64,000 nt of DNA from Maribacter algicola (lineage in GTDB: Bacteria > Bacteroidota > Bacteroidia > Flavobacteriales > Flavobacteriaceae). Numbering within the stretch: the first letter of the stretch is position 1; every line of letters begins with the position of its first letter. The notes under the pieces were generated by a model. The model was not told the origin of the DNA. It searched no databases and worked only from the letters and a program-made list of their open reading frames with translations. A program made the position numbers and the translations under genes. Of this stretch, positions 16,152 to 19,598 are shown one piece after another. The stretch is from contig NZ_QUSX01000002.1 in NCBI RefSeq assembly GCF_003933245.1, positions 620,001-684,000 on the forward strand. The letters are read 5' to 3'.

Positions 16152-16916
16152 TTACACTTTTTTAACGTGCTGTAATTGGTCTTTAAGCTCCTGCATGGAT
16201 TCCTGCAGCTGTTTGAGCAGTCCATTATCCGTAGTGGCGTCTACATTGAAGGTAATTTTACTGCTCACTTCCCAAATTTCCTGGATCAAAAAAGGTTTGA
16301 TATCATAAGGTGGATACGATTCGTTCAAGGAAACCAAGGTAATGTTATTGGAATTGGGCCTTTTCTCGATTTTCTTAACCATCACGGAATCTTGCAAGAC
16401 CACCACATACATTTTATTGGCGCTCACATGGTCAATATGCTCTATGGCCCTTGCCAACACCCATTCGCCTGGACGCAAATTGGGTAACATACTATCCCCT
16501 TCTACCTGAAATCCACGATAGGTGGCATTCCGGAACTCCGGTATGGGCAAATCGAATGCCGGCAATTGCTGGTACCAACTCGTATCTGAAATATTTTGGG
16601 GATAACCCGCCGCGGCCTTCGCGTTCACCAGTACCATATTGTCTCTATCCGCACTATCCACGGTAACCACTTTTGGAATGACACTCGTTTGGGAGGTTTC
16701 CAAATATTGATTATCGCTTTCCCCGAACAACCACAGTGGATTGATCTTAAACTGTTTAAGAAGTTCAGAAACCACCTTTCCGGATAATTTCGTCCTTCCC
16801 CGTTCAATATCGGCAGTGGTGTTCTTTACACCGAGTATCTCTGCAAACTCGGCCTGGGTGTAGCCTAATTCCCTCCGAACATCGGTAAATCTTTTGAGTG
16901 TCAATTCATTTTCCAT
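16152..16916 (-). CDS. XRE-HTH / S24 peptidase-domain repressor (LexA/CI-like)
   Basis: A 254-residue transcription regulator. An N-terminal XRE helix-turn-helix (about 6-62, FTDVRRELGYTQAEFAEILG) binds DNA. A C-terminal S24 domain has the Ser of VEGDSM (about 142) and the Lys of VMVKKIEK (about 181), the self-cleavage dyad of LexA and CI. AKAAAGY (about 97-103) provides an Ala-Gly cleavage-type site in the linker. The last 20 residues form an amphipathic helix. It is divergent from the radical SAM DNA-repair pair, with a repeated operator between them. Self-cleavage in response to DNA damage is inferred. The ATG at 16916 is preferred over a TTG at 16922, which lies in the promoter box. Confidence 0.87.
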   Translation of the reverse strand: MENELTLKRFTDVRRELGYTQAEFAEILGVKNTTADIERGRTKLSGKVVSELLKQFKINPLWLFGESDNQYLETSQTSVIPKVVTVDSADRDNMVLVNAKAAAGYPQNISDTSWYQQLPAFDLPIPEFRNATYRGFQVEGDSMLPNLRPGEWVLARAIEHIDHVSANKMYVVVLQDSVMVKKIEKRPNSNNITLVSLNESYPPYDIKPFLIQEIWEVSSKITFNVDATTDNGLLKQLQESMQELKDQLQHVKKV

Positions 16917-16919
16917 ATC

Positions 16920-16949
16920 CAAATATAGTCAATATGGATTATTTCCAAA
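16920..16949 (-). promoter_or_regulatory. Promoter of the S24 repressor gene, predicted leaderless
   Basis: On the minus strand TTTG at 16949-16946 and TATATTTG at 16927-16920 match the Bacteroidota -33 and -7 boxes with 18 bases between. If the -7 box is placed at -11 to -4, the A of the ATG at 16916 is +1 and TTTG covers -33 to -30. The repressor mRNA would then have no leader. One GGATTATTTCC operator copy fills the spacer. Confidence 0.55.
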
Positions 16950-17007
16950 ATAAAATATGGATTATTTCCATAATTAGGATTATTTCCATAATTTTGGAAT
17001 AATTACC
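16936..17007. promoter_or_regulatory. Operator array: three exact GGATTATTTCC copies plus a related fourth site
   Basis: Exact copies lie at 16936-16946, 16959-16969 and 16977-16987. Each is a GGA-N5-TCC palindrome. A fourth, inverted-looking site (GGAATAATTACC) is at 16996-17007 and sits within TTTGG/CCAAA arms (16993-17010). Copy-to-copy steps are 23, 18 and 19 bases. Copy 1 is in the spacer of the repressor promoter and copy 3 in the spacer of the radical SAM promoter. The likely ligand is the neighbouring S24 repressor, controlling both directions. Confidence 0.6.
16989..16996 (+). promoter_or_regulatory. Putative -7 box (TAATTTTG) for the radical SAM operon
   Basis: TAATTTTG matches TAnnTTTG and lies 20 bases before the ATG at 17016. 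It is directly after operator copy 3 and overlaps copy 4. No good -33 TTG is present, which would fit a tightly repressed promoter. Confidence 0.42.
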
Positions 17008-17015
17008 AAATTGCT

Positions 17016-18275
17016 ATGGATTTTAATCGAATCAAGGAAAAATTAAATATTCTGGCCGATGCCGCCAAGTATGATGTTTCCTGCTCCAGTAGCGGAAGCA
17101 ATCGGAAAAACACGAATAAGGGACTAGGAAATGCCAGTAACGGAATTTGCCATAGTTATTCTGAGGACGGACGCTGCATTTCTCTTTTGAAAATCCTGCT
17201 TACCAACCACTGCATTTACGATTGCGCCTATTGCGTTACCCGTAAAAGCAACGATATAAAAAGGGCAGCCTTTAAAATCCAGGAAGTGGTGGACCTTACC
17301 ATCAACTTTTACAGGAGGAACTACATAGAAGGGCTTTTTTTGAGTTCCGGAATTTTTAAGGATCCGGATTATACCATGGAACGTTTGATCGCCGTGGCTA
17401 AGAAACTGCGTTTGGAGGAGAATTTCAACGGCTATATTCATTTAAAGTCGATTCCCGGGGCCAGTGACGAACTTATGTATGAGGCCGGATTGTATGCTGA
17501 CCGATTGTCGGTCAATATTGAAATCCCCACAGTATCCGGCCTTAAACTATTGGCACCGGATAAAAAGCACGAGGATTTTGCCAAACCGATGCTAAAGGTC
17601 AAAAATGAAATTATCCGATTTAAAGAAGAACGTAAACTCCTAAAAAGTACTCCTAAATATGCTCCTGCGGGACAGAGCACCCAAATGATCGTAGGCGCTA
17701 CGGGAGAATCGGATAAGGATGTGATGTACTCCGCAACGCATTTTTACAAGAACTTTCACATGAAAAGGGTCTACTATTCAGGTTATGTGCCGGTAAGCAA
17801 TGATAGCCGACTTCCCTCCATAGGTACGCAGGTGCCCATGCTCAGGGAAAATAGGCTGTACCAGACCGATTGGCTATTGCGGTTTTATGGTTTCTCCGTG
17901 CAGGAACTGCTCAATGCAGAGTATCCCAATCTGGATATGGATGTGGACCCAAAATTAAGCTGGGCCTTACGGAATCTGCAACACTTTCCAGTAGATGTTA
18001 ACAAGGCGGAAATGTCTGTTTTGGCACGTATTCCAGGAGTGGGAATGACCTCGGTCCATAAAATTATGAAGGCCCGTAAATTCCGAAAATTGGATTGGGA
18101 CCATCTTAAAAAAATGGGGGTGGCCCTCAACAGGGCAAAGTATTTTATCCTGTGTGATTCCCGCCATTGGGAGCGTAGGGATTTGGACCCGCAACGTATT
18201 AAAGGATTGATTTTAAGTACATCCTACGGAAAATATAGACCTCAGTATTCCAATCAATTATCACTTTTCAATTAA
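17016..18275 (+). CDS. Putative DNA modification/repair radical SAM protein (TIGR03916-like)
   Basis: A 419-residue radical SAM protein. The cluster motif is CIYDCAYC (Cys 66, 70, 73), followed by LSSGIF, the usual SAM-binding strand. A helix-hairpin-helix DNA-binding motif (LARIPGVGMTSVHKI, about 333-347) lies near the C-terminus. This combination and the neighbouring partner gene match the family that is genetically linked to uracil-DNA glycosylase-like proteins. Its reaction is not known; a role in DNA base repair or modification is inferred. It is the first gene of a two-gene operon (12 bases to the next) under the S24 operator array. Confidence 0.88.
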   Translation: MDFNRIKEKLNILADAAKYDVSCSSSGSNRKNTNKGLGNASNGICHSYSEDGRCISLLKILLTNHCIYDCAYCVTRKSNDIKRAAFKIQEVVDLTINFYRRNYIEGLFLSSGIFKDPDYTMERLIAVAKKLRLEENFNGYIHLKSIPGASDELMYEAGLYADRLSVNIEIPTVSGLKLLAPDKKHEDFAKPMLKVKNEIIRFKEERKLLKSTPKYAPAGQSTQMIVGATGESDKDVMYSATHFYKNFHMKRVYYSGYVPVSNDSRLPSIGTQVPMLRENRLYQTDWLLRFYGFSVQELLNAEYPNLDMDVDPKLSWALRNLQHFPVDVNKAEMSVLARIPGVGMTSVHKIMKARKFRKLDWDHLKKMGVALNRAKYFILCDSRHWERRDLDPQRIKGLILSTSYGKYRPQYSNQLSLFN

Positions 18276-18287
18276 AAGAGTAGCCTC

Positions 18288-19061
18288 ATGACAACAACAA
18301 AAACATTTATTTATGATGGTAGCTTTAACGGTTTTTTGACCGCCGTATTCGCAGGGTTCGAACAAAAATTGCCTTTTGCCGATATCCAAAAGGAACGTTT
18401 GGCGCAGAACGGACTTTTCTCCGAAACGGAGACCATTTTCACCAATATCGAATTGGCCAAAAGGGTTTGGAACGGTATAAAAAACCGAAGTAATATAGCC
18501 ATCAAGAACATTTACTTTTCCTTTCTAAGTGGGGAAAGGAATATGGAGCCCCTACTCTATCAATACATCCGAAAAATAATGGGTTCCAAATACGTTGCAT
18601 CCGACTTCTCCGATGCCTGCATTTTAAAAATCAGTCAGACGGCCCAAAAGGTACATAGGGAAAAGCACCGTATGGAGGCATTTGTTCGGTTTCAATTGAC
18701 AAAGGACGGTATTTATTTTGCCAATATTGAACCTGATTTTGATGTACTCCCTTTGATTTCCAAACACTTTAAGGAGCGCTATGCGGACCAACCCTGGATT
18801 ATTTATGACCTAAAGCGCAACTATGGTCTGTATTACGATCTTCATGGCGTTGAAATCATTACAATGGACCTTTCCAACGGTTTTGGCAACAGTATCCAAA
18901 AAAGTGCCGCAATGACGAACGAAGAGTATGACTATCAAGATTTGTGGAACAATTATTTCAAGAGTACCAATATCAAATCCCGTATCAACAAAAAACTACA
19001 TACCCAACATATACCTAAGCGATACTGGAAATATTTGAGTGAAAAGAAGGAGGCGGTATAG
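18288..19061 (+). CDS. TIGR03915-family partner of the radical SAM protein (probable DNA metabolism protein)
   Basis: A 257-residue protein that matches, from memory, the family always found beside TIGR03916 radical SAM proteins and sometimes fused to a uracil-DNA glycosylase-like domain. Typical features are the start FIYDGSFNGFLTAVF, the RVWNGIKN region, KVHREKHRMEAFVRF (about 123-137) and the C-terminal DYQDLWNNYFKSTNIKSRIN with a KRYWKYL tail. No glycosylase domain is fused here. It starts 12 bases after the radical SAM gene, so the two are one operon. The biochemical role is unknown. Confidence 0.87.
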   Translation: MTTTKTFIYDGSFNGFLTAVFAGFEQKLPFADIQKERLAQNGLFSETETIFTNIELAKRVWNGIKNRSNIAIKNIYFSFLSGERNMEPLLYQYIRKIMGSKYVASDFSDACILKISQTAQKVHREKHRMEAFVRFQLTKDGIYFANIEPDFDVLPLISKHFKERYADQPWIIYDLKRNYGLYYDLHGVEIITMDLSNGFGNSIQKSAAMTNEEYDYQDLWNNYFKSTNIKSRINKKLHTQHIPKRYWKYLSEKKEAV

Positions 19062-19070
19062 TATGATTTA

Positions 19071-19598
19071 TTAGTTGGATTTTTCGCCCACAAATTGGTC
19101 GCTCTTATTTTTGAACAGCACGTTAAAAGTCGTTAAACTACCATAGATGCGGGTAATATATTGTTGCAGATCTACTTTTTCCTGATCGTCCAGATTTTTA
19201 CTGGCATTTATTTTTTGTTCCATGACCCGTATACGGTCACGCACCATCACTATTTTGTGAAAAAAGGTGTCAATTGGTATTTCCTTATTGCTCAAACTGG
19301 AATCACTTGGTTCCAAAACTAGGTTGCCACCTTTCCATTTATCGGCAATGGCTACCTGTTCGGTAACATCGCTCCATCTTTTTAAAATCGACATCAATGA
19401 GGTCTCCACTTCTAAAAAGCTTACCGTATCCACGTCGTTTTCCAGTGCCTCGATTACTTCAAAATCATCATTGATTTCGATGGTCTCCAAGCCTTTGTCC
19501 ATAAAAGTTACCCAATAGTGTTTTGAAGAGATGTTGGTTACCACCCCCATTCCAAATTCCGCGTGCTTAATGCGCGACCCAATTCCTAATAATTGCAT
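19071..19598 (-). CDS. Hypothetical protein with UvrD-tail/KOW-like N-terminus
   Basis: A 175-residue soluble protein. Residues 1-50 (GIGSRIKHAEFGMGVVTNISS...YWVTFMDKG) resemble the small Tudor/KOW-like domain at the C-terminus of UvrD/PcrA helicases (VxHxxFGxGxV). The rest is helical (about 55-165). The stop lies nine bases from the TIGR03915 gene stop, in convergent orientation. Such proteins are, by impression, conserved and unannotated in Flavobacteriaceae. Nucleic acid or RNA polymerase binding is only a guess from the N-terminal motif. Confidence 0.65.
   Translation of the reverse strand: MQLLGIGSRIKHAEFGMGVVTNISSKHYWVTFMDKGLETIEINDDFEVIEALENDVDTVSFLEVETSLMSILKRWSDVTEQVAIADKWKGGNLVLEPSDSSLSNKEIPIDTFFHKIVMVRDRIRVMEQKINASKNLDDQEKVDLQQYITRIYGSLTTFNVLFKNKSDQFVGEKSN

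Follow-up and report, generated by a model that had tools for sequence, protein, structure and literature searches.

What controls a pair of adjacent genes, encoding a radical S-adenosylmethionine (radical SAM) protein and a DUF4130 partner, that is transcribed away from a repressor gene across a gap of only 99 bp? The question is raised by a locus of Maribacter algicola within the 64,000-nucleotide stretch of its genome that we analyzed (contig NZ_QUSX01000002.1, positions 620,001 to 684,000, hereafter the window). We consider it very likely that the repressor is the genome's non-canonical Bacteroidetes LexA, and that it represses both itself and the radical SAM/DUF4130 pair through three operators, with repression being relieved by DNA damage. 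As this type of switch was reported in 2021 (PMC8565304; Sanchez-Osuna et al., 2021), what is new here is a further instance, one that makes a clear and well-conserved added example of a known SOS system.

Operators between two divergent genes

The features of the locus, in window coordinates, are:

16152..16916, minus strand: repressor gene, 254 aa, ATG at 16916, HTH_3 and S24 peptidase domains
16920..16927, minus strand: putative repressor -7 box TATATTTG, with the TTTG at 16946-16949 as -33 box, 18 bp apart
16936..16946: operator 1, exact GGATTATTTCC, between the repressor -33 and -7 boxes and having one base in common with the -33 box
16959..16969: operator 2, exact GGATTATTTCC, 23 bp from operator 1
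16977..16987: operator 3, exact GGATTATTTCC, 18 bp from operator 2, ending one base before the radical SAM -7 box
16989..16996, plus strand: putative radical SAM -7 box TAATTTTG
16996..17006: degenerate fourth site GGAATAATTAC (GGA-ATAAT-TAC), one dyad mismatch relative to GGA-N5-TCC, 19 bp after site 3 (found by eye)
17016..18275, plus strand: radical SAM gene, 419 aa, ATG at 17016, TIGR03916
18288..19061, plus strand: partner gene, 257 aa, TIGR03915/DUF4130

The three exact copies and the related fourth site had been listed in the initial annotation of this DNA, and all four are present where the two genes diverge. Could such a cluster arise by chance in a gap with 22% G+C? When the gap was shuffled 20,000 times with its dinucleotides preserved, three GGA-N5-TCC sites never arose, and two arose in six of the shuffles. 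On the scale of the whole window the motif is less striking, with six one-mismatch matches to GGATTATTTCC relative to 2.91 expected, a number reached in 6 of 100 shuffles.

The Bacteroidetes promoter consensus is TTTG/TAnnTTTG, and putative -7 boxes fitting it occur on both sides of the array, although on the radical SAM side no TTTG could be clearly recognized as a -33 box. In 76 of 78 relatives a repressor-side TAnnTTTG (CAAAnnTA as read on the other strand) lies within the first 140 bases of the gap, and in 76 of 78 a radical SAM-side TAnnTTTG lies within its last 80 bases; neither is fixed in position. The natural reading of this layout is that the operators occlude both divergent promoters. 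Since just three bases lie between the repressor -7 box and the ATG, the repressor mRNA may be leaderless here, which would not be so in relatives with longer gaps.

The repressor and its predicted regulon

The repressor matches PF01381 (HTH_3) with 34.4 bits (cut-off 23) and PF00717 (Peptidase_S24) with 49.5 bits (cut-off 23.3), and its NCBIfam matches are DicA-, UmuD- and phage-repressor-like, all of them under the cut-off. In an alignment of 79 repressors, one of which is a fragment cut at a contig end (L105), A103-G104, S142 and K181/K182 are identical throughout, as are N98, A101-A103, G104, Y105, P106, G140, D141 and V180. Judged from the alignment, A103-G104 is a candidate scissile bond, and S142 together with either K181 or K182 are candidates for the catalytic dyad, in keeping with the Ser/Lys dyad and Ala-Gly site that had been assigned to the protein earlier. 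RecA is encoded in the genome, the repressor is the genome's sole S24 match, and no S24 protein that could be UmuD was found there. The repressor is presumably LexA/CI-like, cleavable with the aid of RecA, and active on the array.

Is this a private switch for one pair of genes? Lone exact copies of GGATTATTTCC were rejected as a regulon marker, as the genome has 11 of them relative to four for the reversed control, and of the eight outside the window the two that were inspected are both within open reading frames (ORFs). Similarly, TGGA-W5-TCC has at least 101 matches in the genome and at least 45 in the reversed control, and in 20 chosen regions most of the lone sites lie within ORFs. Two lone sites there are intergenic, L159, upstream of the ribosomal protein L21 gene, and L172. 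Because single copies are uninformative, it is the tandem arrangement that constitutes the signal. Searching for pairs of GGA-W5-TCC sites with 5-14 bp between them and A/T spacers only, limits that mean other targets may be missed, gave five pairs at four loci in the genome and none in the reversed control. Each of 23 genomes from the genus, this one included, has two to six tandem pairs (the control gave none in 22 genomes and one in G006), and one of 14 further genomes from the order has such a pair. A tandem pair at L192 (G048:C4:22590), in a different family of the order, is formed by GGATTATTTCC and its mirror GGAAATAATCC.

The pairs of the M. algicola genome that lie away from lexA are:

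C1:704094: tandem pair shortly upstream of a DinB-type polymerase gene, which is followed by a DnaE-type polymerase gene
C1:1014794: tandem pair shortly upstream of an SRAP gene
C1:1089487: tandem pair shortly upstream of a PA0069 radical SAM gene

The sites of these three pairs (L155, L157 and L158) are 19 bp apart, unlike the 23 and 18 bp at lexA. The main text of PMC8565304 predicts a GGA-N5-TCC regulon of DinB-DnaE, SplB (COG1533), COG1573-COG4277, SRAP (COG2135) and the repressor itself, and the targets of the arrays in the M. algicola genome match members of it. The same source reports that the Salegentibacter agarivorans protein binds GGA-N5-TCC, as demonstrated by electrophoretic mobility shift assays with dyad mutants, and that its predicted targets, recA excepted, are induced by mitomycin C as measured by reverse transcription quantitative PCR. 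The initial proposal of a damage-inducible LexA/CI-like switch thus gains support from data that others obtained in S. agarivorans, whereas the notion of a switch private to the radical SAM pair probably has to be given up: this protein is probably the genome's SOS repressor, for which no fewer than three target operons besides the pair are predicted. The genome-wide search that had been suggested for defining the regulon was likewise fruitful for tandem pairs and uninformative for single copies.

If we extend these data by homology to M. algicola, then in the undamaged cell LexA dimers would occupy the three GGA-N5-TCC operators, on or beside both divergent promoters, so that LexA would repress itself as well as the radical SAM/DUF4130 pair. 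After DNA damage, RecA filaments would trigger cleavage of Ala103-Gly104 by the Ser/Lys dyad, the array would empty and the pair would be switched on together with lexA and the DinB-DnaE, SRAP and PA0069 radical SAM genes. Occupancy, cleavage and induction are each inferred for this organism from the behavior of its homologs.

Conservation in the Maribacter-Flagellimonas-Zobellia group

Genomes were scanned with the radical SAM protein and the best 80 of 179 relatives were kept as loci, which come from Maribacter, Flagellimonas/Allomuricauda, Zobellia, Pricia, Cellulophaga and their kin, the nearest named one being Maribacter flavus with a radical SAM protein that is 99% identical. In 78 of these loci the repressor and radical SAM genes diverge, the exceptions being L051, which is at a contig end, and L115. 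That the pair sits so consistently on the repressor's own promoter region suggests that it is a core SOS function in this group. The 78 gaps contain three GGA-N5-TCC sites in 44 cases, four in 31 and two in three, if we include one site in L116 that resembles a chance match, and in 30 of the four-site relatives the extra site is on the radical SAM side. The spacing is 23/18 in 37 loci and 23/18/23 in 27 (64 of 78 altogether), with mostly near variants of these elsewhere. Since the loci are related, the 78 are not independent events.

What does the radical SAM pair do?

Both proteins are far above the curated cut-offs of their families, the radical SAM protein with 667.7 bits for TIGR03916 (cut-off 343.5), which is presumably the same family as COG4277, and the adjacent partner with 266.4 bits for TIGR03915 (cut-off 112.25). 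The assignment of the pair to these two families was therefore correct, and its earlier description as an uncharacterized route of DNA repair or modification stands. The CX3CX2C motif of the radical SAM protein is C66/C70/C73, and a helix-hairpin-helix match, under the cut-off, lies near residues 325-356. Among solved structures, sequence searches matched this protein only to RuvA, ComEA and HydG-type entries, each weakly, and found no relative of the partner. The structure model of the radical SAM protein has a pLDDT of 39.0, obtained with a 36-sequence alignment in which the others are 79-96% identical to the query. A literature search on TIGR03915/TIGR03916, and another on UdgX combined with radical SAM, found nothing; passages of PMC3765255 describe DUF4130 as a predicted mutagenesis-related enzyme tied to SplB-like radical SAM proteins and uracil-DNA glycosylases (UDGs). 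Phage records contain 10 relatives of the radical SAM protein, and among viral contigs 40 stretches fit a pattern and none was confirmed. Adjoining the pair at 19071-19598 of the window, and read toward it, is a gene for a 175-aa protein without a Pfam or NCBIfam match at E 0.01.

Do the two proteins work as a unit? Natural disruptions of the pair bear upon this. Genome G006 (L217, G006:C3:368000-376500) has kept the lexA array and the DUF4130 partner, and no radical SAM match was found in it. Alignment A1 has 45 invariant positions, 15 of which are changed in the G006 partner, whereas among the 79 other partners 71 have none of these positions changed, seven have one changed, and L115 has nine changed or lost, five of the nine at or past the end of its translated stretch. 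Because A1 holds proteins like those being tested, which makes this count partly circular, it was repeated with only the window and 36 distant sequences defining the invariant positions, upon which G006 had 17 of 54 positions changed, L115 had 13 and the other 78 partners had between zero and six (L061, cut at a contig end, was left out). The L115 locus belongs to genome G013 (L218, L219; G013:C72), in which some 38 kb separate the pair from the lexA array, a TAG stop interrupts the radical SAM frame and the partner frame is shortened to 241 aa and altered at its C-terminal end. The G006 and G013 cases, two in number, are consistent with the two proteins forming a unit that is of use as long as it stays under lexA. 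A tentative model, which we rate at rather less than an even chance and as much less certain than the switch, is that the radical SAM enzyme would act chemically on damaged DNA, with the DUF4130 protein holding the nucleic acid substrate.

A more specific version of this model is speculative. The predicted fold of the partner weakly resembles DHH/RecJ/Cdc45 proteins, a lead that comes from structure only, and it is conceivable, if doubtful, that the TIGR03915/DUF4130 partner has a DHH fold devoid of catalytic activity, as Cdc45 has in comparison with RecJ, and would hold single-stranded or nicked DNA for the radical SAM enzyme. Neither DHH nor DH[HNQ] occurs in any of 66 partner sequences, and comparison by hhalign with RecJ and NrnA-type profiles gave probabilities of 0.12 and 0.16 percent, which do not exceed the 0.05 to 0.53 of the control pairs, all with shallow alignments. 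If the idea were true, the SOS response would include a radical-based direct-reversal repair machine, and the UDG domain that accompanies the system in other bacteria would be an accessory to it and not its core.

The main text of PMC8565304 labels COG1573-COG4277 as a UDG-based base excision repair system, and one could argue that the pair excises uracil, particularly as its counterpart in Phaeobacter has a 481-aa partner in which TIGR03915 is fused to a UdgX-type UDG domain. We regard this as unlikely for the proteins in question. Profile scans of the window partner detected DUF4130/TIGR03915 only and no UDG domain, the two UDG-domain matches of the genome are located away from the pair, and in all 14 other Bacteroidia loci the partner frame extends for 250-275 residues from its first matched residue, which leaves no room for a UDG fusion. 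As the partner is without a UDG domain, "UDG operon" is a misnomer for this pair. Three findings together argue against the published label: the pair is placed beside lexA, the partner has decayed in a genome in which no radical SAM gene was found, and a glycosylase domain is absent.

Is the pair a bystander?

An alternative view of the locus is that the array serves lexA autoregulation only, with the pair just happening to be transcribed away from the same gap. It draws on loci in which the array stays beside lexA and the pair is incomplete or displaced, as in G006 (no radical SAM gene), G013 and G005 (M. flavus; L039 and L221), where the array and the pair are about 480 bp apart with an assembly gap (99 Ns) and flanking direct repeats. 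However, the opposite is seen in L100 (3285-4000), in which a 184-aa ORF in the same direction as lexA separates lexA from a four-site array that adjoins the radical SAM gene. Moreover, operator 3 lies one base from the radical SAM TAnnTTTG box, the extra site of four-site relatives is nearly always on that side, the displaced pair of G013 looks damaged, and the COG1573-COG4277 operon was independently predicted to be in the regulon (main text of PMC8565304). Weighing these points, we judge it quite unlikely that the pair is a bystander. It is very improbable that the repressor is a CI switch of a prophage and not a chromosomal SOS regulator, as, despite its CI-like HTH_3 and S24 layout and its under-cut-off DicA-, UmuD- and phage-repressor-like matches, the divergent layout is kept across several genera, scans of five window proteins revealed no phage gene and the other arrays of the genome precede SOS-type genes.

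Several observations nevertheless count against regulation of the pair, and the wider regulon, by this LexA. The displaced pair of G005 is 98.6% and 96.5% identical to that of the window, making it a possible counter-example to dependence on the array, and the co-decay rests on two genomes. The 80 loci are from close relatives, so that the conservation counts overstate the independent evidence. Looking further afield, the radical SAM protein is above the cut-off in 15 of 198 genomes of the class, the genome of the window among them, and in none of the 14 others is the repressor present within the 8-8.5 kb fetched, or GGA-N5-TCC within the 300 bp upstream of the radical SAM gene. The divergent coupling to lexA is, consequently, a feature of one clade. 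In five of the same 14 upstream regions there is CTAA-N5-TTAG; that this other SOS motif recurs before the radical SAM gene elsewhere matches a prediction in PMC8565304. Additionally, both sites upstream of SRAP are also within a mechanically called 108-aa ORF on the opposite strand, and for recA no GGA-N5-TCC site was found within the 3.5 kb inspected, just as the recA of S. agarivorans is not induced by mitomycin C in PMC8565304.

What does the preferred reading, repression of lexA and the pair by the genome's LexA, offer beyond another instance of the switch? The locus provides a testable route to the reaction of the pair in culturable marine bacteria.

Relation to characterized repressors and radical SAM systems

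In the main text of PMC8565304, "non-canonical LexA" denotes S24 repressors of Bacteroidetes with a CI-like helix-turn-helix domain, for which there are two motifs, GGA-N5-TCC, mainly in Flavobacteriaceae, and CTAA-N5-TTAG, which is widespread. Its domains, residues, operators and predicted regulon would place the M. algicola repressor in this type, with the S. agarivorans protein being compared by its published description. The repressor here and the described type share HTH_3 and S24 domains, an Ala-Gly bond, Ser/Lys candidates, GGA-N5-TCC in their own promoters and a predicted regulon with DinB-DnaE, an SplB-type radical SAM protein, SRAP and the COG1573-COG4277 pair. Nowhere in the main text of PMC8565304 are Maribacter, Zobellia or the word "divergently" to be found, and, relative to what is described there, the locus here differs in that lexA and the radical SAM pair have a common divergent promoter region, in that there is a three-site array (four-site in some relatives) with nearly fixed spacing, and in that no UmuD-candidate S24 protein and no recA site were found.

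Comparisons with other systems follow the same pattern of likeness and difference. In E. coli, LexA represses the SOS genes, its own included, until DNA damage leads to self-cleavage by its S24 domain. The M. algicola repressor would resemble it in these respects, as in part the account in PMC8565304 also indicates, but its DNA-binding domain is HTH_3, where E. coli LexA has a winged helix, and the operators of the two differ. Phaeobacter, an alphaproteobacterium, has the same order of a TIGR03916 radical SAM gene followed by a TIGR03915 protein, but there the partner is the TIGR03915-TIGR03914 fusion described above, with a UDG domain that is absent here. Lastly, spore photoproduct lyase, SplB, is likewise a radical SAM protein with a DNA repair context; no SplB chain is among the sequence matches of the M. 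algicola radical SAM protein to solved structures.

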